From Trueperaceae bacterium (GTDB lineage: Bacteria > Deinococcota > Deinococci > Deinococcales > Trueperaceae): 46,247 nucleotides of DNA. A model generated the notes under the pieces. The model was given only the letters and a program-made list of their open reading frames with translations, was not told the origin of the DNA and ran no database searches. Position 1 is the first letter of the stretch, and each line of letters starts with the position of its first letter. The translations under genes and the position numbers were made by a program. The DNA lies in contig SLRS01000107.1 in the NCBI GenBank assembly GCA_007130855.1, positions 1-46,247 of the forward strand, given 5' to 3'. Positions 24,182-37,223 of the stretch are shown here, in pieces.

Positions 24182-25498
24182 TCAACCGCGCCAGGTGCCG
24201 AAGAACGCCGCCTCGCCGCGCTCGAGCGCATCGAGCGCGTACAACAAGAGCGCGGCCGACCAGGCCTGCTGGGGGTGTCCCATCGGGCGCCCGCTGAGGC
24301 CATGGAGCCACTCGTTGAACTCCCACTCGTCGTGCTTGCCCGCGCGGTTGGCCGCGATCAGGGCGTCGAGTTGATGCTCGGCGCGCTGCACCTGGCCCGC
24401 ATGGACCAACGCAGCCACGTAGAAGCCACCCAAGAAGGGCCAGATTCCGCCGTTATGGTACTGGAACGGCAGGTTGAGCTCACGGCTCCGATAGTAGTCG
24501 CGCCAGTCACGATCACCCGGGAAGATCGGCGGGTAGAACGCCTTGATGGGGTACGGATCGTTCGCGCCCACGGCATGGGCGTGGGTCAGGATGCGCCCGC
24601 GCTGGCGCTCGTCGGCGACGCCGAGCAAGATGGCGAGGCAGTTGCCGAACGCGTCGAAGGTGTGGCCGAACTCGCGGAAGCCGGTCCAGGGCAGGTAGAA
24701 GGGCTTCTCCGTCAGCGTGGCCGTGTGCTGGTAGAGCAAGAACCACTCCAGTCGCAGCTGCTTGAGCTCGCCGAGTTGGCGGCCGAAGGCAGCGGCGTCC
24801 CAGGGCCGATCGAGCCACATCAGCAAGTTGATCTTGTGAGCCACGTCTTCGGCCCGGGCTACGTTCGCGCCGCCATCCGCGCCCAGTGCGTTGGCCATGG
24901 CAGCCATCGCGCGCAGCGCCGCGACGTACAGGACGTTGTCGTACAGGACGTTGTAGCGCACGCTGTACAGGTCGGCCCAGTCGCCGGCCTCGGGCACCTC
25001 GAGCAGGCCACAGGCGTTCATGTCCTGATAGCGCAACCACAGCGCCGCGCGCTCGAGCCGTGACCAGGAGGCGCGCACGAAGTCGAGGTCGCCGGTGGCC
25101 TGGCGATAGGCATCGTGCGCCACGATGAACCACAAGTTCGCGTCCACCGCCCCTGCGTTCTCGGTGGTGACATCGCCCGTGCGGGTGTCGACGTTGAGGT
25201 GGATCATGCCCAACTCGGTCTGGTGATCGCCGAGCGTCTCCAGCGAGGCTCGCGTGCAGGCGATCAGCTCGGGATCGCCCGTCACCAGCGCGCCGAGGGC
25301 GGTGATGCCGGCGTCGCGCGCCCACACCTGCGGATAACCGCCCGCGAAGGCCGAACCCTTGAACCCCGCCGGTGCGGCGCAGCGGCGCAGCACGTCGAGC
25401 GCGCGGGCGCGAGCCTCGACGCGTAGTTGCGCGCGGTCGCTCACGGGCGTAGCGGCGCTTGCTGCAGCCTGCCGGTCGCGGTCGGGGTCGATCGTCAT
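24182..25498 (-). CDS. GH100-like (alpha/alpha)6 glycosidase
   Basis: A 438-residue cytoplasmic enzyme (no signal peptide) with the helical-barrel pattern of bacterial invertase/debranching glycosidases. GYPQVWARDAGITALGAL, DANLWFIVAHDAYRQATGD, EVPEAGDWADLYSVRYNVLYDN, LPFQYHNGGIWPFLGGF and KHDEWEFNEWLHG follow GH100 alkaline invertases and related amylo-alpha-1,6-glucosidase-like proteins. Likely acids are the Asp in AGDWADL and the Glu in DEWEFNEW, by comparison only. It is the last gene of the second sugar operon and overlaps the upstream permease stop (TGATG). It is therefore probably the enzyme that splits the imported sugar, such as sucrose or a glucosyl-glycerate type compound. Confidence 0.78.
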   Translation of the reverse strand: MTIDPDRDRQAAASAATPVSDRAQLRVEARARALDVLRRCAAPAGFKGSAFAGGYPQVWARDAGITALGALVTGDPELIACTRASLETLGDHQTELGMIHLNVDTRTGDVTTENAGAVDANLWFIVAHDAYRQATGDLDFVRASWSRLERAALWLRYQDMNACGLLEVPEAGDWADLYSVRYNVLYDNVLYVAALRAMAAMANALGADGGANVARAEDVAHKINLLMWLDRPWDAAAFGRQLGELKQLRLEWFLLYQHTATLTEKPFYLPWTGFREFGHTFDAFGNCLAILLGVADERQRGRILTHAHAVGANDPYPIKAFYPPIFPGDRDWRDYYRSRELNLPFQYHNGGIWPFLGGFYVAALVHAGQVQRAEHQLDALIAANRAGKHDEWEFNEWLHGLSGRPMGHPQQAWSAALLLYALDALERGEAAFFGTWRG

Positions 25499-26382
25499 CA
25501 GCGGCCTCCGATGCCCGTCAGGGTGATGCCCTTGATGAAGTACCGCTGGGCGAACAGGAAGACCGTGAGCACCGGCAGCAGCGCCAGCACGCTCCCCGCC
25601 ATCAGCAGCGTCCAGGCGGTGTTGTACTGCCCCTGGAGCGTGTTCAGGCCCACGGTGAGGGTGCTCATGGTCACCGAGTTGGTCACCACCAGCGGATAGA
25701 GGAACGAGTTCCAGTTGAACAAGAACGTGAAGATCGCCAGGGCCGAGAGCGCGGGACCCGAGAGCGGCAGGATCACGCGCGTGAAGATCTGCCAGTGGGA
25801 GGCGCCGTCGACGACGGCCGCGTCCTCGAGCTCACCGGGGATGGTCAGGAAATACTGGCGCAGCAAGAAGGTGCCGAAAGCGCTGAAGGCGGCTGGCAGG
25901 ATGAGTGCCTGATAGGTGTCGATCCAACCCAGCGTGCGCAGCAAGATGAAGTTCGGGATGATCACCACCTGAGCCGGGATCATCAGCGTGCCCAAGTACC
26001 CTAGGAAGAGGGCGTCACGGCCGGGGAAGCGCAGCCTCGCGAACGCGTAGGCGGCCATCGCGCTCGTGCTCACGCCCAGGAGCGTCACCGAGCCGGCGAC
26101 CACTAAGCTGTTGACGAAGAAGCGCGCGAACGGCAGCACCTCGAAGAGCCGGCTGTAGTTGTCCCAGCGCAAGGGGCTCGGGATGAAGCTCGGCGGGTAC
26201 TCGAACACCGCACCGGCGCTCTTGAGCGAGGTCGAGAGCATCCACACGAACGGCATCAGCATCACGACGGCCGTCGGCACCAGGAAGATCACCAGCAGCC
26301 AGTTGCCGATCGTGTAGCCGAGCATCCGGCGCGGCCGGCGGCGGCGCTGCGCCGGCGGCGGCGTGCGCGAGCCCTCAGTCAT
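25498..26382 (-). CDS. Sugar ABC transporter permease, MalG type
   Basis: A 294-residue membrane subunit of standard length with six expected spans. An Arg/Pro-rich cytoplasmic N-terminus (residues 1-20) precedes the first span NWLLVIFLVPTAVVMLMPFV. The EAA loop is intact: ELEDAAVVDGASHWQIF followed by VILPLSGPAL. The C-terminus FAQRYFIKGITLTGIGGR is typical of MalG-type proteins. It overlaps the upstream permease by eight bases and the downstream glycosidase by one. Unlike the MalG-type protein at 3180, it has no periplasmic insertion. Confidence 0.93.
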   Translation of the reverse strand: MTEGSRTPPPAQRRRRPRRMLGYTIGNWLLVIFLVPTAVVMLMPFVWMLSTSLKSAGAVFEYPPSFIPSPLRWDNYSRLFEVLPFARFFVNSLVVAGSVTLLGVSTSAMAAYAFARLRFPGRDALFLGYLGTLMIPAQVVIIPNFILLRTLGWIDTYQALILPAAFSAFGTFLLRQYFLTIPGELEDAAVVDGASHWQIFTRVILPLSGPALSALAIFTFLFNWNSFLYPLVVTNSVTMSTLTVGLNTLQGQYNTAWTLLMAGSVLALLPVLTVFLFAQRYFIKGITLTGIGGR

Positions 26383-27307
26383 AGTGCACCCACTGCCGCT
26401 GGTAGCGGAACTGGACCACGGTCACCACGAAGATGATGGCGAACAGCACCCAGGCCATGGCGGCCGCGTAGCCCATCTGGAAGAACTGGAAGGCGTAGCG
26501 GTAGATGTTGAAGACCAGCGTGTTGGTGGCGTTGGCTGGACCGCCTTCGGTCATGATGAACGCCTGGTCGAATACCTGGAACGAGTTGATGATGCTGATC
26601 ACGAGCACGAAGAAGGTCGTCGACGACAGCATCGGGATGGTGATGTGCACGAAGCGGTGCCAACTGCTGGCACCGTCGATCTTGGCGGCCTCGTACAGGT
26701 GCGCCGGCACCGACTGGAGCCCGGCCAGGAACAGCACCATCGAGAAACCGATCTGCTGCCAGATGCTCATGATGATGATCGCCGGCAACGCCCAGCGCGT
26801 ACTCTGCAGCCAACTGGGCGGATCGTCGACGCCGAGCATGAACAGCACGCTGTTGAGCAGACCGAAGTCGGCGTGGAAGATCCAGCGCCACACCAACGCG
26901 ACGGCCACCGTCGAGGCGACCACCGGCATGAAGTAGGCGGCACGGAAGAACAGCCGCCCCGGGATGCGTGCGTTGAGCGCCATCGCCACGAGCAGCGCCA
27001 ACACCATCTGCGCCGGCACCGTTCCCAGCACGTACACGAAGGTGTTGCGCAAGACCCGGTGGAAGGTGGCGTCGTCGACGAGCCGCCGGTAGTTCGCGAG
27101 ACCCGCCCACTCCGGGGGCCGCAGCAGGTCCCAGTGGCTGAAGCTGATCAGCAGCGCCGCCAACACCGGGAAGAACGTGAAGATCAAGAAGCCCAGCAAG
27201 TTGGGCAGCAAGAAGCCGTAGGCCGTCGACGTGGTGCGGCGCTGCAGGCGACCGGAGTGCGCCTGGCGCGGCCCGGCGCGCACGCTGCGCTTCACATCGA
27301 CGGCCAC
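26375..27307 (-). CDS. Sugar ABC transporter permease, MalF/UgpA type
   Basis: A 310-residue membrane subunit. After a basic N-terminus of 30 residues comes span one (YGFLLPNLLGFLIFTFFPVL), then the conserved FSHWDLLRPPEWAGLANYRRL. The EAA loop is AHLYEAAKIDGASSWHRF followed by ITIPML. QVFDQAFIMTEGGPANAT is a family block. It begins ten bases after the amidohydrolase stop. The operon contains no ATPase gene. Confidence 0.93.
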   Translation of the reverse strand: MAVDVKRSVRAGPRQAHSGRLQRRTTSTAYGFLLPNLLGFLIFTFFPVLAALLISFSHWDLLRPPEWAGLANYRRLVDDATFHRVLRNTFVYVLGTVPAQMVLALLVAMALNARIPGRLFFRAAYFMPVVASTVAVALVWRWIFHADFGLLNSVLFMLGVDDPPSWLQSTRWALPAIIIMSIWQQIGFSMVLFLAGLQSVPAHLYEAAKIDGASSWHRFVHITIPMLSSTTFFVLVISIINSFQVFDQAFIMTEGGPANATNTLVFNIYRYAFQFFQMGYAAAMAWVLFAIIFVVTVVQFRYQRQWVHYD

Positions 27308-27317
27308 GGCGTCCCCC

Positions 27318-28187
27318 TCAATCCTCGAGCCCGAAGATGCGCGCGGCGTTCCCGTAGAAGATCAGCTCCTGCTGCTCCTGGCTGAGCCCCATGTCGGTGA
27401 AGGCAGCCCGCCACGCCTCGACGTCGCGCTTCATGCGGCGGTGGTCGGAGTCCGAGCCGTACACGAGCTTCTCGGGGCGGATCTCGCGCATGACGTAGCC
27501 ACCCTCGATGATGTGGTTGCGTACCACGTCGCCGCCGGAGATGTCGAAGAACAGCCTCGGTCGCCAGCGCGCGATCGCGCACGCCGTGCGGTAGTCGGGC
27601 CAGCCGAGGTGGGCACCGATGACGTACATCTCGGGGAAGTGGAAGGCGATGGTGTCGAGGTAGATCGGCTGCATGCGCGCCGAGCCGAAGCCGTAGCCGC
27701 GGCCGCGCGCCTGACGACCCAAGCGGGTCACCAGGCGCTCCTCCTCTTCGCCGCTCGGCGGCGCCTTCCAGGCGTCCTCGGCAGCCCCCATCAGGTAATC
27801 GTTGGGGCCGCCGAGGATGCCGGTGTGGAACAGCATGCGCATGCCGCGCGCCTGGGCCTTCTCATAGTGCCGGTAGTAGGCCTCGTCATCGTAGTTGCGC
27901 CTCGGGCCGAGCGTCTTGATGCCAGCGAAGCCGCGATCCGCGAACTCGTCGATCAGGCTCGGTGGGTCCTCGTCGAGGCGCAACCAGCCCAGGCCCACGA
28001 ACAGGTCCGGGGCACGCTCGATGGCGGCGCTCAACGCATCGTGGCCGGCGGGCCCGGGGTTGCCGAGGAGGGCGATCTTGACGATCCCCACCTCCTCGGC
28101 CACGTCCTCGAGCGCAGCCACGAAGTCCGCGCCGGAGGTGCGTTCCTCCCACCAGAAGTTGTGGACGTGGGCGTCGAAGATCCGCAT
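27318..28187 (-). CDS. Amidohydrolase-2 family metal-dependent hydrolase
   Basis: A 289-residue TIM-barrel hydrolase or decarboxylase of the amidohydrolase-2 family. Likely metal ligands are the N-terminal DAHVHNF, a His in RMLFHTGILGG, HLGWPDYR, and the Asp in VYGSDSDHRR near the C-terminus. Related enzymes include lactonases and decarboxylases. It sits between the binding-protein gene and the permeases, overlapping the former as TAATG, so it is expressed with the transporter. A lactone or sugar-derivative hydrolase is plausible; the substrate is not identifiable. Confidence 0.85.
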   Translation of the reverse strand: MRIFDAHVHNFWWEERTSGADFVAALEDVAEEVGIVKIALLGNPGPAGHDALSAAIERAPDLFVGLGWLRLDEDPPSLIDEFADRGFAGIKTLGPRRNYDDEAYYRHYEKAQARGMRMLFHTGILGGPNDYLMGAAEDAWKAPPSGEEEERLVTRLGRQARGRGYGFGSARMQPIYLDTIAFHFPEMYVIGAHLGWPDYRTACAIARWRPRLFFDISGGDVVRNHIIEGGYVMREIRPEKLVYGSDSDHRRMKRDVEAWRAAFTDMGLSQEQQELIFYGNAARIFGLED

Positions 28188-29446
28188 TACTGGCTAGCGG
28201 CCATGAAGCGGCGCACTTCGGCGCCCATCTGGGCGAGCGCGTCCTCGGCGCTCATCTCACCCGTATAGATCAGGTCGAGGTGGGGTACGACGATGGTGCT
28301 CTCGATCTCGCGCCAGTCGGGGAACATCGGTGCCAGACGACCCCGCTCGGTCTCGCTGATGAAGACCTCGCAGCTGACCGTCTCCGGGCAGGCGTTCACG
28401 AACGTGGCGGCCACCTCGGGATCGGCGAAGGAGGCGGGGACGGCGACGCCGGTGCCGGCGAAGATCGACTGGCCCTCGGGGCCGGCCAGGAACTGCAGGA
28501 AGGTCCAGGCGGCCTCGGGATGCTCGCTGGTGGCCGACATCACGTATCCGGCGCCGCCGAGGGTGTTGGCGCGAGTGCCGTCGGGACCTGCGGGCAGAGG
28601 CGCGACGTCCCAGGCGAAGTCAGCGTCCATGAAGGTCGGGATGCGCGCGGCGTTCGTCATCACCATCGCCACCCGGCCGGTGCTGAACAGCTCCGTGGTG
28701 CTGCCGAGCTGGGCCATCGCGTCGAAGCTGGGGACCGAGCCGTCGACCAGGATCATGTCGGCGATGAACTGGATCGCCGCGACCGCCTCGGGCTCGTCCA
28801 TCATGAACTCGGTGGGCTCGAGCGGGTCGTCGAACACGCTCCCCTGGTTCTGGTACACCCACTGCGGGTAGCGGTTCTTCTCCAGCGCCAGGCCGTACTG
28901 GGTGGCGCGGCCGCGCTCGTCGCGCACCGTGAGGGCCTGGGCGGCGGCGCGGATGTCGTCCCACCGCCATGCGTCGGTGGGGTACGCCATGCCGGCCTCG
29001 TCGAACAGGTCCTGGTTGTAGTACAAGACGTTGGTGTCGTTGTCGCGGGCGAAGCCGTAGACCTGGCCCTCGTAGCTGAAGATCTCGAGCAGGCCGGGAT
29101 GGTAGGCCTCGGTGTCGAAGCCGTCGCGCTCGATCAGCTCGTCGAGCGGAGCCAGCACGCCGCGGGCGGCGTAGGACGGGATGTTGTTGAGGAACATGAC
29201 GTCGGGCGCCGTGCCGCCGGCCATCTGCGTCAGGATGCGGTCGAAGTAAGCGCCCCAAGGCGCGTGCTGGACCTCGATGCGAACCTCGTCTTGGGCGGCG
29301 TGGAAGGCCTCGATGACCTCGTAGTTCGGTGGCAGTTCACCTGGATCGCCCCAGAACGACCACGTGATGGTGGTCTGGGCACTGGCGCCGATGAGCGCGC
29401 CGATGAGCGTGAGGGCGAGGGCGATGCGGATCAAGAGCTTGTTCAT
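28187..29446 (-). CDS. Sugar ABC transporter substrate-binding protein
   Basis: First gene of the second sugar operon, 419 residues. The signal peptide is MNKLLIRIALALTLIGALIG with cleavage likely after SAQ (no lipobox). Mature sequence matches family-1 binding proteins: TITWSFWGDPGEL, then FDRILTQMAGGTAPDVMFLNN and GVLAPLDELIERDG. Two Cys in ACPETVSC may form a disulfide, as in the binding protein at 761. CTGGAGGACGC precedes the ATG at 29446. The gene lies 60 bases after the ROK regulator, which suggests control by that protein. I find no strong promoter in the 60-base gap, so it may be read from the ROK promoter. Confidence 0.92.
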   Translation of the reverse strand: MNKLLIRIALALTLIGALIGASAQTTITWSFWGDPGELPPNYEVIEAFHAAQDEVRIEVQHAPWGAYFDRILTQMAGGTAPDVMFLNNIPSYAARGVLAPLDELIERDGFDTEAYHPGLLEIFSYEGQVYGFARDNDTNVLYYNQDLFDEAGMAYPTDAWRWDDIRAAAQALTVRDERGRATQYGLALEKNRYPQWVYQNQGSVFDDPLEPTEFMMDEPEAVAAIQFIADMILVDGSVPSFDAMAQLGSTTELFSTGRVAMVMTNAARIPTFMDADFAWDVAPLPAGPDGTRANTLGGAGYVMSATSEHPEAAWTFLQFLAGPEGQSIFAGTGVAVPASFADPEVAATFVNACPETVSCEVFISETERGRLAPMFPDWREIESTIVVPHLDLIYTGEMSAEDALAQMGAEVRRFMAASQ

Positions 29447-29506
29447 GCGTCCTCCAGGACAACGTTTCGTGCGCTATGCGCGATGATCCGGTCGGTCACT
29501 GGTTGC

Positions 29507-30643
29507 TCAGACGACACGTGTCAAGGGGCCTCCTCTCAACCAGCGCTCCACCGACCGCGCCGGCTCCAACGCCGTGGCGACGGCCCCATGCAAGCCGGCG
29601 TCGTCACCGAGTTGCGCTGCGGTCACGTCGACCTCGAAGCCGGTCATCAGCGCGACGGCGTCACGGACGGCGTCGAGTCGAGGGGCGCAGCGTAGGCCGA
29701 TACCGCCTCCCACGACGATACGTTCGGGATCGACGAGGGTGCTGACGGCGGCCAGCGCCCAGGCGAGATCGTCGAGGAACGACGCGACCAGCGTGGCGCC
29801 GGGCTCGCGCCCCTGCTCGGCCTCGAGGAAGGCGTCCTCGGGATCGCCGCTGCCGCCGGCCTGCAGGTGCCGGCGGCGCATGCCGGCACCGCAGAGGGCG
29901 TCCTCGAGCGTGGTCCGCGACCCTGGTGGGTACGGCAGCAGGCCGAACTCCCCGGCCCGCCCAGCCAGACCGCGTTGCAACGAGCCGCTCACCACCAGGC
30001 CGAACCCGAGGCCGGTGCCGATGCTGACGTAGACGACGTCACCGAGTCCCGCCCCGGCGCCCTGACGCAGCTCGCCGAGCGTCGCCGCGTTGACGTCGTT
30101 CAGCACCGTGAGGGGCAGCTCGAGCGCGGCGTCGAGCCGGTCGAGGAAGCCGTCGCTCTCGAGCGCGGGGAGGTTGGGTGCGAACGCGATCCGGCGCCGC
30201 AGCCGATCCACCACCCCCGGCGTGCCGATGGCGACGTCCAACACGTGTCCGGCCGCGCCTGCCTCGGCGGCGAGCCGCGCCACCATGGCGGCGAGCTGGG
30301 CCACGAGCGAGTCGGCAGGCCCGTGGTCGGTCGGCTCACGCAACGCGGCCACCACACGCCCGTCGAGATCGGCCAACACCGCTCGGGTGGTGGTGCCACC
30401 GACGTCCGCGCCGACGACGAAGCCGGCGTTGGCGTTGAACGCCAGGAGCTGCCCCGGGCGGCCGCTCGCGCGCCGCTCGAAGCCCCGCTCGACCACCAGC
30501 CGAGCCGCCAGCAGCGTCGCCACGAGGCCCGACGCGGTCGGCTTGCTGACGTTGCAGCGCCGGGCGATGGCGGCGCGCGACAACGGCCCCTCCTGTCGTA
30601 GCAGATCGACCACGGCTTGTTCCCGCATGGACACACCGGCCAT
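29507..30643 (-). CDS. ROK-family transcriptional regulator (NagC/XylR type)
   Basis: A 378-residue sugar-sensing repressor. Residues 1-60 form a winged-helix DNA-binding domain (LSRAAIARRCNVSKPTASGLVATLL). The rest is the sugar-kinase-like ROK domain: FVVGADVGGTTTRAVLADLDG, VLNDVNAATLGELRQGAG, VYVSIGTGLGFGLVV, RAGEFGLLPYPPG. The usual zinc-binding CGCxGC motif is replaced by TTLEDALCGAGM, with only one cysteine, so a zinc site is unlikely. It lies directly upstream of the sugar operon, and a palindrome abuts its start. ATG at 30643 is used; an in-frame ATG at 30628 is an alternative, and neither has a clear ribosome site. Confidence 0.9.
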   Translation of the reverse strand: MAGVSMREQAVVDLLRQEGPLSRAAIARRCNVSKPTASGLVATLLAARLVVERGFERRASGRPGQLLAFNANAGFVVGADVGGTTTRAVLADLDGRVVAALREPTDHGPADSLVAQLAAMVARLAAEAGAAGHVLDVAIGTPGVVDRLRRRIAFAPNLPALESDGFLDRLDAALELPLTVLNDVNAATLGELRQGAGAGLGDVVYVSIGTGLGFGLVVSGSLQRGLAGRAGEFGLLPYPPGSRTTLEDALCGAGMRRRHLQAGGSGDPEDAFLEAEQGREPGATLVASFLDDLAWALAAVSTLVDPERIVVGGGIGLRCAPRLDAVRDAVALMTGFEVDVTAAQLGDDAGLHGAVATALEPARSVERWLRGGPLTRVV

Positions 30644-30644
30644 C

Positions 30645-30665
30645 TTCGTTAGGAGACTTAACGAA
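30645..30665. promoter_or_regulatory. Palindromic operator of the ROK regulator
   Basis: TTCGTTA (30645-30651) and TAACGAA (30659-30665) are perfect inverted repeats around a seven-base spacer GGAGACT. AT-rich arms of this kind are rare in this GC-rich window. The site lies between a likely -10 and the ROK start codon, where a bound repressor would block transcription of its own gene and perhaps the sugar operon. Confidence 0.7.
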
Positions 30666-30676
30666 CCGTAGCCGTC

Positions 30677-30682
30677 AGTCTA
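30677..30682 (-). promoter_or_regulatory. Likely -10 box of the ROK regulator gene
   Basis: TAGACT on the minus strand, with transcription expected near 30670, just before the palindrome at 30645-30665. No matching -35 was found. A perfect 12-base palindrome CTGACGCGTCAG (30687-30698) lies just upstream; it could be a second operator or the end of the CAP-domain transcript. Confidence 0.4.
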
Positions 30683-30726
30683 CTCCCTGACGCGTCAGCG
30701 GCACGCAACCGGCGCAACGTCGCGGG

Positions 30727-31527
30727 CTACGGGCGCCCCGGTGCCACGCCCGGCTCGGCAGCGTCACGTTCGATCACGAGCGCATGGATCACGGCGACAC
30801 GCCCGCCCCCGAGCTCGTGGCCGGTCATGACGCTGACCGCCTGGTCGCCCTGCGGCAACCTCAGCGTGAGCTCGCGGCCGTCGCGCGTGGTCGGGGCCAA
30901 CGCTTCGTCCACCAGCACCACCAGGTCGGCGACGCTGCGCTCGAACGCGAGCCGCAGCTGCACGCCGTTGGCCAGCTCCACGCGCAGCAGCGGGTTCGGG
31001 TCGCCGGCGAACACCTGGACCACGAAGACGCGGCCGTCGGGGTGCTCGGCCAGACCGTGGCCTACGTGCGTCCACTCCTCGCCGAGGAGGTTGTCACGGT
31101 GCGCGCTGCTCTCCAGCCAGCCGCGCAGCGTCCGCTCGGCGAGATCGTCGCGCACGGACCGCACTTGGGCGAGGTTCTCCCCCAGACGAACCGTCGCGCC
31201 GCCGGCGTTCGCCACGCGCTGCGCCAGCGTCTCGTTCGCCGGCGTCGGGCTCTCGTGGTCGAAGTAGCCGAGCGCCACCATCTCGGCGGCATGGTGCCGT
31301 GCCGCCAGCGCCAGCACCTCGCTGTGCCTGAGCGCCGCGCGTCCCTCCCGCTTGCGCTCGGCGTCGACGAGCTCGAGGAAGCGGCCCTCGAGCGGGTGCG
31401 CCGGGACATCCGGGTAGGCGGCCGGCAGCGGACCCCGGGCCGCGGCCACGAGCGCGACCACGAGCAACGACAACGACGCCACGAGCGTCGCGCCGCGGGC
31501 GAGGCGACCTACTGAGTGGTGGCGCAT
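30727..31527 (-). CDS. Secreted CAP-domain (SCP/PR-1 family) protein
   Basis: A 266-residue exported protein with an N-terminal signal or anchor (LVASLSLLVVALVAA, about residues 15-30). The CAP domain spans residues about 45-175. It has DAERKREGRAALRHSEVLALAARHHAAEM, the His-Glu pair in GYFDHESPTPANETL, GENLAQVRSVRDD, and the closing LESSAHRDNLLGEEWTHVGHGLA. The C-terminal 90 residues look like a small beta domain of unknown type. It starts three bases after the corrinoid-activator stop, so it is probably co-transcribed with the methyl-transfer cluster. A functional link to that cluster is not evident. Confidence 0.85.
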   Translation of the reverse strand: MRHHSVGRLARGATLVASLSLLVVALVAAARGPLPAAYPDVPAHPLEGRFLELVDAERKREGRAALRHSEVLALAARHHAAEMVALGYFDHESPTPANETLAQRVANAGGATVRLGENLAQVRSVRDDLAERTLRGWLESSAHRDNLLGEEWTHVGHGLAEHPDGRVFVVQVFAGDPNPLLRVELANGVQLRLAFERSVADLVVLVDEALAPTTRDGRELTLRLPQGDQAVSVMTGHELGGGRVAVIHALVIERDAAEPGVAPGRP

Positions 31528-31530
31528 GCC

Positions 31531-33423
31531 TCAGCCTACGGCGGCGGGCTCGAATCCGAGGTGCGCGACGAACGCGTCGGCGAAGGCCGGCGAGCCGGAG
31601 AGCTCCAGGGTGCGCATCCGGGCTGCGATCGCCGCGGCGCGCTCACGCCGCGCCAACGAAGTGGCGGCCATCACCACGCCGCTGCCGGCGGCGTTCCCGA
31701 GCGCCTCGCTGCGAGCGCTCAGCACGGTCGGTAGCAGCCCCACCCGAGCGGCGGCGTCGGCGCGCAGGAAGCTGCCGAAACCGCCGGCCAAGTACACGCG
31801 CTCGACCTCGTCGGCAGCGATGCCGGCCGCGCCCAACAGCGTGTCGATCGCGGCCGCCACGGCCGCCTTGGCGAGCTGCAGTTCGCGCACGTCGCACTCG
31901 TTCAGCACGATCGCTTCGCCGCCCTCGGTCTCTGGGCCCGGCACCACCACGAACGCCGCCCGTCCCCGCTGCTCGACGCAGCGCTCGCGCACCGCCGCGG
32001 CCACCGACGGCGCGAGCTCGTCGCGCCTGCGCAGGCGGCCACCCTCGTCGATCACGCCGGCGTCGAGCAGCGCCGCCACGACGTCGAGCAGGCCCGCGCC
32101 GCAGATGCCCACCGCGGGTACTCCCCCGATGGTGCTCGGCGAGGGTACCTGGTCGCCCGGGGTCAGTGCGAAGGCGCTCACCGCGCCCTCGACACCGCCG
32201 ACGCCGGCGCCGATGCAGGCGCCCTCGAACGCCGGGCCGGCCGCGGCACTGCAGGCCAGCAGCCACGAGGCGTTGCCGAGCACGACCTCGCCATTGGTGC
32301 CGAGATCGATCAGCAGCGAGATGCCGCGAGCCTCGTCCATGCCCGCCGCGAGGACCGCCGCGACGACGTCGGCGCCTACGTAAGCGGAGACGCCCGGCAG
32401 CGTCTCCACCGATGCCGCCCGATGGAGCGAGAGGCCGAGCTCGCGCGCCTCGTAGACCCTTGCGGCGACGGTCACCGGCACGAATGGCGCCACCGCGATC
32501 GCGCTGGGGTCGAGGCCCAGCAAGGCGTGCAGCATGGTGGTGTTGCCCACGACGGTCAGTGCCCGCACGGCCGTGGGCGTCGACGCGTGGCGCGCGCTCA
32601 GCAGCGCCACCAGCGCCTGGAGCTGCTCGACGATGCGTCGCTGCAGCTCCCCGACGCCGTGCTGCCGGGCATGCGCGAGCCGTGTGACCACGTCGGCCCC
32701 GAGATCGGCCTGTCGGTTCGGCTCGGCGTGCACGTCGACCACGCGGCCGGTCGCGAGATCGACCAGGTAGGCGGCCACCGTGGTGGTCCCGATGTCGACC
32801 GCGACCCCCCACAACCCGGCGTCCGCCACGGGCGCCTCCACGGCGAGCAGGACGTTGCCCACCGTGCCCGACGGCGCCATGGCCTCGATCACGTCGACCG
32901 ACTGATCGCAGCGTCGCAGCGTCGCGCTCAGCTCCTGCAACGCCGCCAGCGAGAGCCGGTGGCCGGCGCAGCCGGCATGGCGCAACAGCCGCTCGAGGTC
33001 GGGGGCCGCATCGGTCAGCGTCGCCGGCGGCAGCGTCACGCGGCGCCGGCGCAGTGGCGGGTCGCGCCCGGGTTCGCCTCGACCGGGTCCGTCGGGGCCG
33101 GCCGCGGGCGGATCCGGGCGCTGTGCGCGAGCCCGACCCGGCGGCAGTTCGACCACCAGGTGCGCACTGGGCGCCAGGCGGCAGGCGAGCCGCACGCCGG
33201 CGGCCAACCGCGCCGGTGCCAGCAGACTCCGCTCCACGGCGTCCGCGGCGGCCGCCTCGCCGGCGAGCACGCGCACCGTGCACTTGCCGCAGGTCCCCGC
33301 GCCGCCGCAGGGCGCGTCGAGCGCGAATCGAAGCCGGCGAAGCACCTCCAGCACGTCCGTCGCTGTGCCGATCGAGACGGCGGCGCGGGCGCCGTCGTCG
33401 ACGACGGTGAGCAGGCGGTTCAC
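31531..33423 (-). CDS. Corrinoid-protein activator: [2Fe-2S] ferredoxin domain plus ASKHA ATPase (RACE/DUF4445 type)
   Basis: Reduces the inactive Co(II) corrinoid of a methyl-transfer protein back to Co(I) using ATP. The 630-residue protein starts with a [2Fe-2S] ferredoxin domain: Cys39, Cys45, Cys48 and Cys81 in APCGGAGTCGKC and ACRLAP. A linker rich in Pro/Arg follows, then the ATPase with GVAVDIGTTTVAAYLVDL, VVGNTTMLHALLGLDP, LLIDLGTNGEVVLGN and VYLAGGFGSFLRADAA. The GTG start at 33423 overlaps the DUF1638 stop (GTGA). An upstream extension of the same frame reads through that gene out of phase and is not included. The gene is the fifth of the methyl-transfer operon. Confidence 0.9.
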   Translation of the reverse strand: MNRLLTVVDDGARAAVSIGTATDVLEVLRRLRFALDAPCGGAGTCGKCTVRVLAGEAAAADAVERSLLAPARLAAGVRLACRLAPSAHLVVELPPGRARAQRPDPPAAGPDGPGRGEPGRDPPLRRRRVTLPPATLTDAAPDLERLLRHAGCAGHRLSLAALQELSATLRRCDQSVDVIEAMAPSGTVGNVLLAVEAPVADAGLWGVAVDIGTTTVAAYLVDLATGRVVDVHAEPNRQADLGADVVTRLAHARQHGVGELQRRIVEQLQALVALLSARHASTPTAVRALTVVGNTTMLHALLGLDPSAIAVAPFVPVTVAARVYEARELGLSLHRAASVETLPGVSAYVGADVVAAVLAAGMDEARGISLLIDLGTNGEVVLGNASWLLACSAAAGPAFEGACIGAGVGGVEGAVSAFALTPGDQVPSPSTIGGVPAVGICGAGLLDVVAALLDAGVIDEGGRLRRRDELAPSVAAAVRERCVEQRGRAAFVVVPGPETEGGEAIVLNECDVRELQLAKAAVAAAIDTLLGAAGIAADEVERVYLAGGFGSFLRADAAARVGLLPTVLSARSEALGNAAGSGVVMAATSLARRERAAAIAARMRTLELSGSPAFADAFVAHLGFEPAAVG

Positions 33424-34172: not shown

Positions 34173-35528
34173 TCAGGCGCCGGCCAGCGCCTGCCGGATG
34201 CGCGCATCGAGCGCCTCCCGGCTGGGGATGATCGAGGCGTAGACGAGCTCCCCGTTGAGGTAGATGCTGGGCAGCGTGCTCACCCCCAGCGCCTTGCAGC
34301 GTGCGACGTTCTCGCGCTCGCTGAAGCGGTGCTCGACGACGTCGATCGCGCTCCCGAAACGCTCGCCGGCACCGAGCGCCGTGCGCAGCATGTAGGTGCA
34401 GGCGGCGCACGTGGCGGAGTCGAGCGTGAACACCTCGAGCAGCGGACGCGCCAGCGCCGCGTAGTCGGGAAGCTCGACCGTGATGGCCTCGTCGGTGCGC
34501 GCAGCGTGGCCGAGCGACGCGCGCGCGGCCGCCGGCCGGCGCAGCGCCTGGCCGAGGGCGATGACGTTCTCGACCGGCAAGTCGTAGGGCATGTCGCAGC
34601 CGGGCGACACGATCAGCCCGCGCGGGTCGACGGCGGCGAGCAGGTCGACGGCGCAGCGCATGTTGTCGAGCTGCGACCCGAACAGCATCACGGTCGTGAG
34701 CGGGACGTTGCCGCCGAGTGCGATGCGGTGTTCGTCGGTAACGACCTTCGCGGCCGCCAGGTCGACGTTCTCGTCGATCGAGATGCCGTCGGGGCGGGTC
34801 CGGCACATCGCCTCGAGATTGCGGGTGGCATCGCCGCAGACGAAGAACGACGACGGCGTGTCGCGGCTGCGCAGGCGCTCGAACAGCCGCGCGAAGGGCG
34901 CGTGCAGGAACTGCTCGAAGTGCGCCGGCGAGATCTGCGACACCAGCGGATCGACCACGGCCACGACGTCGGCTCCGACCTCCGCGTACAGGTCGGCCAT
35001 GTGCAACGCGACGCCGGTCGTGTGCGCCAACAAATCGTGTACGTAGGGCTCGTCGTCGAAGAGGTCGAGGAACAGCTCGGTGCCGCGCAGGTGCGAGGCG
35101 AGCGTGAACGGCCCGCACAGCAGCGCGTAGACGGCGGTGGTGTGGCCGACGCACGCCACGAGCCGGGCGACGATGTCGACCGCCATCGGGATGCGCGCCG
35201 CGGCCGCGTCGAAGGCGGGGAACGCGCCGCCGCGCGCCAGCGGATGCGTCACCACCACGGGCGGCGAGTCGGCCGACCAGCGCAGCTCGCAGCCCAGCGC
35301 CTCGGCCTCGAGCTGGAGGTCGAACATCGCCGGCATGCCATCGGGCTCGTACAGCCCGTGCGCCTCGAGCAGGCCCCGTTCCAGCGCCTCGACGTCGCGG
35401 TACAGCGCGTCGGCCGGCACGCCGATCAGCTTGCCGACGTGCACGCCGGTGAACGGCACCCACGGGGTCGCCGACGGCGTCTCGTGACGCAGCGCGGCGA
35501 GCACCCGGTCCCGACCGGTCAAGGGCAT
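34173..35528 (-). CDS. UroD-family methyltransferase fused to a thioredoxin-like domain
   Basis: A 451-residue two-domain protein. Residues 1-330 are a uroporphyrinogen-decarboxylase-type barrel as in MtaA/MtbA, with the family start TGRDRVLAALRHE. Zinc ligands in MtaA are His-x-Cys plus a distal Cys. Here the site reads FFVCGD, with Phe229 in place of His and Cys231 kept, and the distal Cys311 in SPGCDMPYD. Residues about 365-451 form a thioredoxin- or glutaredoxin-like fold with CAAC (Cys374, Cys377) and LPSIYLNGELVY holding the cis-proline. AGGAGG precedes the ATG at 35528. It likely moves a methyl group to or from the corrinoid protein encoded 19 bases upstream; the redox domain suggests a thiol or disulfide step. 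Confidence 0.85.
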   Translation of the reverse strand: MPLTGRDRVLAALRHETPSATPWVPFTGVHVGKLIGVPADALYRDVEALERGLLEAHGLYEPDGMPAMFDLQLEAEALGCELRWSADSPPVVVTHPLARGGAFPAFDAAAARIPMAVDIVARLVACVGHTTAVYALLCGPFTLASHLRGTELFLDLFDDEPYVHDLLAHTTGVALHMADLYAEVGADVVAVVDPLVSQISPAHFEQFLHAPFARLFERLRSRDTPSSFFVCGDATRNLEAMCRTRPDGISIDENVDLAAAKVVTDEHRIALGGNVPLTTVMLFGSQLDNMRCAVDLLAAVDPRGLIVSPGCDMPYDLPVENVIALGQALRRPAAARASLGHAARTDEAITVELPDYAALARPLLEVFTLDSATCAACTYMLRTALGAGERFGSAIDVVEHRFSERENVARCKALGVSTLPSIYLNGELVYASIIPSREALDARIRQALAGA

Positions 35529-35547: not shown

Positions 35548-36192
35548 TCAGGATGCGCGACCCGCGCAGTGGGCCAGTGCGGCGTCGGCGGCGCTCGACG
35601 CGTCGGGCGCGTAGAGGTCGGCACCGATCGCCTCCCGGAACGCATCGGTGACCGGCGCCCCGCCGACCATGATGCACACACGGCCGCGGAGCCCCTGCGC
35701 CTGGGCCGCCTCGACCACGTGGCGCATCTCGGTCATGGTGGTGGTCAGCAGCGCCGAGCAGGCGACGATGTCGGCGTCGTGCTCGGTCGCCGCGCGCACG
35801 AAGCGCTCGGCGCTCACGTCGACGCCGAGGTCGATCACCGCGAGACCCTTGGCCTCCATCATCATCCGCACGAGGTTCTTGCCGATGTCGTGCAGGTCGC
35901 CCTTCACCGTACCGAGCACCACCTTGCCGCGGGCCTTCACGCCGGCACTGACGAGGTGGGGCTCGAGCACGGCGATCCCGGCGTGCATGGCCCGGGCCGC
36001 GATCAGCACCTCGGGCACGAACACCTCGTTCGCCTTGAAGCGCTCGCCGATCACGCCCATGCCTTGCATGAGCCCATCCTCCAGGATCCGCTGGGGCGTC
36101 TCGCCTTCGTCGAGCGCCTGCTGCACGAGCGCCTCGACCTCCTTGGCCTGGCCGCGCTGGAGCCGTTCGGACAGCTCGCGTAACACGCTCAC
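35548..36192 (-). CDS. Corrinoid (B12-binding) methyl carrier protein, MtaC/MtbC type
   Basis: A 214-residue methyl shuttle. Residues 1-90 are the helical cap (EALVQQALDEGETPQRILED, then RFKANEVFVPEVLIAARAMH). The B12 Rossmann domain follows, with GTVKGDLHDIGKNLV, where His101 is the lower cobalt ligand. SALLTTTM and VGGAPVTDAFREAIGADLYAPDA are the remaining cofactor contacts. The start is GTG at 36192, with GAGGAGGAG just upstream. A longer frame reaching 37371 crosses the upstream methyltransferase out of phase and is excluded. It sits between the two UroD-family genes, as expected for their shared partner. Confidence 0.93.
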   Translation of the reverse strand: MSVLRELSERLQRGQAKEVEALVQQALDEGETPQRILEDGLMQGMGVIGERFKANEVFVPEVLIAARAMHAGIAVLEPHLVSAGVKARGKVVLGTVKGDLHDIGKNLVRMMMEAKGLAVIDLGVDVSAERFVRAATEHDADIVACSALLTTTMTEMRHVVEAAQAQGLRGRVCIMVGGAPVTDAFREAIGADLYAPDASSAADAALAHCAGRAS

Positions 36193-36221
36193 GGTGCTCC
36201 TCCTCGCTCCCTTCTCACTGC

Positions 36222-37223
36222 TCAGGCCCGGTAGGGCAGCGGCCGGCACAGCGCCGCGAGGTTCTCGGCGGGCGTTCCCGCGGGGATCTCGCAGCCGGCG
36301 TTGACCATGTACGGATTGCCGGCACGCTCGTAGGCGTCCAGTACGCCGCTCGCGATCGATGCGGGGGTGCCGTTGCGGACCACCGAGACCGGGTCCAAGT
36401 TGCCGGTGATCACCACTCGCTCGCCCACGGCCGCGCGCACGGCGGCGAGGTCGACCATATGGTCGACATCGACGATGTCGACTCCGAGGTCGGCGATGCC
36501 CGGCAGCAGATGCGTGATGTTGCCGCAGATGTGCAACTTGGCGAAGGCACCCGACGCCCTGACGGCCTGCACCAGCCGCTTCTCGCGCGGCTGGATCAGC
36601 GCCTCGTAGGTGCGCGGGTCGATCTGGCTGGCGATCGCGTCGCCGATGCCGATGGTGTCGGCGCCGGCGGCGACCTGTGCGCGCGCGAAGGCGATGCCGG
36701 TCTCGACGCACACGTCCATCAGCGCGCCGGCGTACTCCGGATCGTCCATCAGGTCGAACATGAAGGTGATCACGCCGCGCAGGTTGGCGGCCTGGGCGGC
36801 CGGACCCTCCACCCAACCGAGCAGCGAGTACGTGCCGGCATGGTCGCGGGCGTAGCGCTCCACGGCCCTGACGCGATCGAGCATGCGCGCCGAGCCCATT
36901 GGGTCGGGCACCGCGAGCGTATCGAGGTCCTTCGTGTCGGCCAGTGGCTGGGTGCTGCGCGGAGGCCCGTCGGCGACGAAGGTCACCGCGCCGCCGAAGC
37001 CGTGCGTTTCGCGGTAGGGGTCGGAGATGCAGCTCAGCTGGTCGATGCCGAACACCTCGGCGCAGCGCACGTTGGCCTCCACCAGGACGCAGTGGTCGGC
37101 GGCGAAGCGGCCGTAGTCCGAACCGCTGAACTCGGCTGCGAACTGCATCAGGATCGGGGTCCGCGCCAGATCGTCGACGGCGCGCCCCGCGACCGTACCC
37201 AGGTACCGCTCGAGGCCGTTCAC
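36222..37223 (-). CDS. UroD-family methyltransferase with complete zinc site
   Basis: A 333-residue single-domain UroD-type protein. Its zinc site is intact: His231 and Cys233 in KLHICGNITHLL and Cys311 in NAGCEIP. The N-terminus (ARTPILMQFAAEFSGSDYG, CISDPYRETHGFGG) matches a bacterial UroD-like group and not true heme-pathway UroD. It probably demethylates the unknown substrate or passes methyl to an acceptor; which of the two UroD-family proteins does which is unknown. The start is GTG at 37223, coupled by GTGA to a small upstream frame; no ribosome site of its own is clear. Confidence 0.88.
   Translation of the reverse strand: MNGLERYLGTVAGRAVDDLARTPILMQFAAEFSGSDYGRFAADHCVLVEANVRCAEVFGIDQLSCISDPYRETHGFGGAVTFVADGPPRSTQPLADTKDLDTLAVPDPMGSARMLDRVRAVERYARDHAGTYSLLGWVEGPAAQAANLRGVITFMFDLMDDPEYAGALMDVCVETGIAFARAQVAAGADTIGIGDAIASQIDPRTYEALIQPREKRLVQAVRASGAFAKLHICGNITHLLPGIADLGVDIVDVDHMVDLAAVRAAVGERVVITGNLDPVSVVRNGTPASIASGVLDAYERAGNPYMVNAGCEIPAGTPAENLAALCRPLPYRA

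Follow-up and report, generated by a model that had tools for sequence, protein, structure and literature searches.

Among the described systems closest to the protein analysed here, a UroD-family barrel fused to a thioredoxin-like (Trx) domain, are the soluble coenzyme M methyltransferases (SCMTs) MtaA and MtbA (4ay7). The fusion shares with them the UroD barrel, two zinc-ligand cysteines, an aligned active-site Glu and corrinoid partner genes. However, it has Phe in place of the ligand His and an extra Trx domain, and it scores below the curated cut-off of the MtaA/CmuA family TIGR01463 (131 vs 235.4 bits).

A second comparison is provided by the type 1 mlp clusters of Kountz and Balskus (PMC10418091), which, according to the accessible part of that paper, likewise combine UroDs with a corrinoid protein and a Ram/RACE activase, without a folate methyltransferase. 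In contrast to the fusion, the Mlps described there are nearly always His-Cys-Cys and no Trx fusion is mentioned in that part, while the fusion loci add a G3E GTPase and PocR regulators. Where a type 1 cluster has Mlp2 and Mlp3, both His-Cys-Cys, the operon studied here has one His-Cys-Cys UroD, and the fusion is Phe-Cys-Cys. Similarly, the O-demethylase/dehalogenase MT1 enzymes MtvB, OdmB, MtoB and CdmB are UroD barrels that act with a corrinoid protein, some of them zinc-free, but no Trx domain is reported for them; CdmB works with a folate MT2 (PMC13222342).

Two further families touch on parts of the locus. The G3E GTPases of COG0523 subfamily 13 co-localise with corrinoid methyltransferases (Haas 2009, PMC2770081), a likeness to our loci in gene context; the fusion goes unmentioned there. 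The HUIPC Trx-like (seleno)proteins (NF047660) are the nearest NCBIfam family to the Trx domain, the whole of which aligns with them, but the fusion lies far below their curated cut-off (23.3 vs 105 bits), carries CAAC or CAPC instead of HUIPC and is joined to a UroD. We found no description of the fusion, its ligand signature or its link to UroD expansions in the literature searched, which included few subscription journals. The fusion is apparently an undescribed conserved family of anaerobes, made of component parts of known kinds.

Results

A UroD-thioredoxin fusion in a corrinoid operon

The window, by which we mean the whole 46,247-nucleotide stretch of DNA analysed, carries an operon in the order UroD sister, corrinoid protein, fusion, DUF1638 protein and RACo, with intergenic gaps of 20, 19, 12 and -1 bases. 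Its features are:

36222..37223, minus strand: sister UroD-family protein, 333 residues, with LHICG and AGCE; candidate substrate-side methyltransferase
35548..36201 (putative start), minus strand: corrinoid (B12-binding) protein, PF02607 and PF02310
34173..35528, minus strand: UroD-thioredoxin fusion, 451 residues; UroD/MtaA-like barrel (about 5-330), linker and Trx-like domain (about 364-447)
34173..34439, minus strand: Trx-like domain of the fusion, residues about 364-451, with C374-A-A-C377 and L419-P420
33420..34160, minus strand: DUF1638 protein
31531..33423, minus strand: RACo-type corrinoid reductive activase with an N-terminal 2Fe-2S domain

The corrinoid protein and the reductive activase in one operon, a combination that recurs in relatives, mark this as a corrinoid methyltransferase system. 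In Phaeobacter, DUF1638 and a RamA-like protein have been linked genetically to B12 reactivation (PMC5764234). The operon itself contains no G3E gene, two cobW-family proteins being encoded elsewhere in the window genome, and no folate MT2 gene was found near it. In this genome (89% complete) we found two UroD-family proteins, the fusion and its sister, and no match to HemE; it also has a 349-residue pterin-binding frame, and by frame length and score the picture looks like DHPS plus MetH.

The fusion is encoded by a single frame without interruption, with an ATG at 35528 preceded by AGGAGG. Profile searches matched PF01208 to residues 5-330 (7.5e-48; 163.7 bits vs a cut-off of 23.9), which places the barrel in the UroD superfamily, and Thioredoxin_3 weakly to residues 373-441. 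A profile of the fusion family matched MtaA (4ay7) at 6.1e-31 and the solved thioredoxin 1nho at 3.9e-08 over residues 364-447. AlphaFold2 modelled the whole protein with a mean pLDDT of 90.9 and a pTM of 0.89, and the isolated C-terminus (last 97 residues) with a pLDDT of 95.4. With the whole model, Foldseek gave MtaA (4ay7) as the top PDB match, UroD being also among the best; with the isolated domain, the matches listed were thioredoxins. This domain carries C374-A-A-C377 and an invariant L419-P420, as expected for a thioredoxin fold, the cis-Pro being assigned from the sequence. Thus, the initial annotation of a UroD-family barrel joined to a thioredoxin-like C-terminus with a CAAC and a cis-Pro loop is borne out by profiles and by both models. 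The frame error joining two genes that it had considered, or a chimera, can be ruled out because about 80 independent contigs encode the identical architecture. The fusion is likewise not HemE, given its TIGR01464 score (49.8 bits vs the curated 302.95).

The ligand pattern of the barrel

The barrel motifs of MtaA, HICG and PGC, have FFVCG and PGCDMPYD as their counterparts in the fusion. In this alignment F229 falls on the His of HICG, and C231 and C311 on both MtaA cysteines, as the initial annotation had read them, so that the His-Cys-Cys zinc ligands of SCMTs are replaced by a Phe-Cys-Cys pattern. The sister protein at 36222 does keep all three ligands (LHICG and AGCE, i.e. His-x-Cys ... 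Cys). In addition, E253 of the fusion aligns with the second Glu of SVEE in MtaA, which we take to lie near the zinc in that enzyme.

All 80 aligned sequences share F229, C231, C311, C374 and C377 without exception, and Phe also occupies the ligand-His position in the CAPC and three-domain clades described below. Because of this invariance, the Phe-Cys-Cys pattern reads as a signature of the whole fusion family and not as a decayed site. The substitution first described as a lost zinc histidine is therefore real, but the word 'lost' is misleading, as there was no local loss. Selenocysteine at the CxxC of the fusion was also considered and is ruled out, both positions being Cys in every aligned sequence.

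Spread and forms of the family

A scan of genome contigs returned 261 relatives of the fusion. The best 80 of these, with 48-56% identity, are all full-length fusions, one of them (L017) split by a frame break, and the survey of its spread called for earlier thus shows a conserved architecture. These 80 come from Bacillota, Spirochaetota, Chloroflexota, Acidobacteriota, Calditrichota and Mycoplasmatota, and the carriers are anaerobes of gut, sediment and digesters. In a tree of 53 UroD sequences, all fusions fall in one clade (support 100/100) that comprises CAAC, CAPC and three-domain UroD-Trx-Trx forms. The fusion is usually single-copy, and its Trx domain, followed across 28 carrier genomes, occurs nearly always once per genome and within the fusion. 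In the window's own order only the window genome carries it (1 of 101 genomes), which suggests horizontal acquisition.

The only Trx-less members of the clade are two 332-residue paralogues from Oscillospiraceae (L041:3440-4495 and L052:3484-4548), in which C231, C311 and E253 are all lost; the Trx loss in the two is probably one event. The initial annotation had asked for homologues lacking the fusion as evidence against its proposal, and no Trx-less close homologue that kept the active-site cysteines was found. This joint loss points to a cooperation of the barrel cysteines with the Trx domain. In both genomes an intact fusion is also present, close to the paralogue gene.

A search of Clostridia with NF047660 returned no stand-alone HUIPC protein at the family cut-off, most matches being the fusion itself. 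At L166:6477-6761, a stand-alone 95-residue Thioredoxin_3 protein (CTAC) has a CAPC-type fusion on one side and a cobW-family GTPase on the other.

Gene neighbours and accompanying UroD proteins

Neighbours were counted at the 49 loci whose sequence extends 4 kb or more in each direction from the fusion. A G3E GTPase is present in 38 of these, a corrinoid protein or RACo in 31 (25 and 23, respectively) and a PocR-type regulator in 25, and in about half of the loci a corrinoid gene is absent nearby. The G3E gene lies directly downstream of the fusion in 40 of 75 loci, and the neighbouring G3E proteins have a Walker A motif (55/57) and, nearly always, a C-x-C. Some loci also encode MetH-activation-like proteins. 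The Pfam tally of neighbours showed no recurrent substrate gene beyond these core genes, and sugar genes adjoin the fusion inconsistently (L040; the ABC transporter in the window), so that methylated sugars are no more than a possible substrate. A BioB/PylB-like radical SAM protein adjoins the fusion at L038:2947-3927, with similar cases in about 11 loci. The three-domain loci (L161, L162, L163 and L164) have genes for a G3E GTPase, FTHFS, a pterin-binding methyltransferase, MTHFR and Etf; with these folate genes adjoining, the methyl partner in this clade may be folate.

Carriers of the fusion hold more UroD proteins of other kinds. With kinship between the related genomes ignored, so that both p values overstate the evidence, the median number of other UroDs in a Clostridia sample was 14 in 37 carriers vs 0 in 43 non-carriers (Mann-Whitney p 1.4e-10; carrier status inferred from a weak Trx profile match, per-genome counts of 22 standing for at least 22), and in one Spirochaetota order 7 carriers had 1-17 further UroDs vs 0-4 in 54 non-carriers (p 5.5e-6). 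Several non-carriers also have many UroDs, so the fusion is not obligatory.

The UroDs neighbouring the fusion often have HSDG or HSCG motifs. A carboxylate in place of Cys is typical of O-type enzymes (PMC10418091), and the motifs of these neighbours resemble the O-type sites presented there. Searching 22 carrier genomes with PF00809 gave matches that in nearly all look MetH- or DHPS-like, with a plausible stand-alone MeTr-like match in one genome only (G128), as sorted by frame length and score only. Taken together, the UroD-rich carriers, the O-type motifs and the few stand-alone folate methyltransferases suggest a shared thiol-type step fed by several demethylases.

Discussion

The reading that we put first, while giving it somewhat less than an even chance, is that the fusion is a corrinoid-dependent thiol-type methyltransferase that partners substrate-specific UroDs, its Trx domain keeping the thiol chemistry reduced. 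Its starting points were observed directly: the architecture, the family-wide ligand pattern, the gene partners and the co-occurrence with extra UroD proteins. It is favoured because MtaA is the closest solved structure, because the operon includes a corrinoid protein, RACo and DUF1638, because carriers hold more other UroDs and because Trx loss goes with loss of the cysteines and the Glu. It is weakened by the folate genes adjoining the three-domain loci and by the roughly half of loci without a corrinoid gene nearby.

For such a system we infer methyl transfer and its direction, the thiol acceptor, the role of the CxxC and the presence of a metal as follows. One or many substrate-specific UroD proteins would load the methyl onto the corrinoid protein, whose activity would be maintained by RACo together with DUF1638 or a MetH-activation-like protein. 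The fusion would be the conserved, usually single-copy partner in this modular methyl-transfer system and would exchange the methyl of the corrinoid with an acceptor, either a thiol or sulfide. Where MtaA has its His-Cys-Cys zinc site, the fusion would use Cys231, Cys311 and probably Glu253. The C374-A-A-C377 of the Trx domain would hold the site cysteines, or the thiol of the acceptor, in the reduced state or else deliver the thiol, and in most relatives the G3E GTPase probably loads the metal. We know of no CoM synthesis in the bacteria carrying the fusion. Of the roles first offered for the redox pair, the best fit is upkeep of a thiol, in the substrate or in the active site, since the CxxC is invariant and both Trx-less members lost C231, C311 and E253. 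The operon already encodes a RACo activase, which makes corrinoid reduction a less likely role, and a methyl-thioether formed on the CxxC is a hypothetical third.

A conserved fusion would mark a shared step in the use of methylated compounds by anaerobes of gut, sediment and digesters. That O-demethylating anaerobes methylate sulfide is established physiology, and in freshwater sediments methanethiol and dimethyl sulfide arise in this way (PMC7374477). We found no enzyme for this activity during O-demethylation in the literature searched, and the fusion, if it passes the methyl to sulfur, could supply it. The bolder proposal is that the fusion is a previously unrecognised thioredoxin-coupled methyl-corrinoid:thiol/sulfide methyltransferase and terminal methyl acceptor that disposes of methyls from many O-methylated compounds, e.g. 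as methanethiol, in anaerobes without a folate methyltransferase; we regard this as unlikely.

Alternatively, the fusion could be an MT1 that charges the corrinoid by demethylating a methylated sulfur compound, be it a thioether, methanethiol or a mixed disulfide, with the Trx domain reducing the disulfide form of substrate or product and the methyl going elsewhere, e.g. to folate in Clostridia. We consider this possible, if doubtful. The related UroDs of type 1 mlp clusters have methyl-S/Se compounds as their substrates (PMC10418091), zinc-free UroD MT1 enzymes exist (CdmB, PMC13222342), and the three-domain clade adjoins MeTr, MTHFR and FTHFS. However, the fusion is highly conserved and usually single-copy, in contrast to the multiplied other UroDs, so a shared step fits better than one substrate, and most carriers have no obvious stand-alone folate methyltransferase.

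The Phe for His in all members and the invariant CxxC would also suit a protein without methyl transfer, in which C231 and C311 form a metal-free dithiol/disulfide pair coupled to Trx that protects or re-reduces the corrinoid protein or the UroD partners. The loss of Trx and both barrel cysteines together in one lineage agrees with such a role, and zinc-ligand cysteines of UroD-superfamily enzymes can oxidise; 1xr2, which we take to be oxidised MetE, is among the structure matches of the fusion model. This role is nevertheless improbable in our view, since a dedicated ATP-dependent activase is present in the operon, the Glu matching the active-site Glu of MtaA is kept and having a G3E GTPase as partner argues for a metal site. 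That the fusion is a corrinoid:homocysteine methyltransferase, i.e. a methionine synthase, is very hard to credit: the UroD/MetE superfamily, the S-type cysteines and the MetH-activation-like proteins in some loci speak for it, but a pterin-binding protein of MetH length is present in most carriers, among them the window genome, and the neighbour scan showed no recurring genes of methionine biosynthesis.

Surroundings of the window operon

In a same-genus genome (G085), L169:6693-7694 encodes a close copy of the sister UroD that adjoins the same DMT-type transporter gene. Within the 10.6 kb of L169 examined there is no corrinoid protein, fusion, DUF1638 or RACo; downstream of the sister copy are a creatininase-like gene and branched-chain-type ABC transporter genes. 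Between the two genomes, the module has been inserted or lost directly behind the sister gene. On the other side of the operon, after RACo (24182-31527, minus strand), the window carries, as read from the sequence, a CAP/SCP-like protein 3 bases on, then a ROK regulator, an ABC sugar-type transporter and amidohydrolase-like and glycosidase-like genes; these may possibly form a substrate-uptake context.
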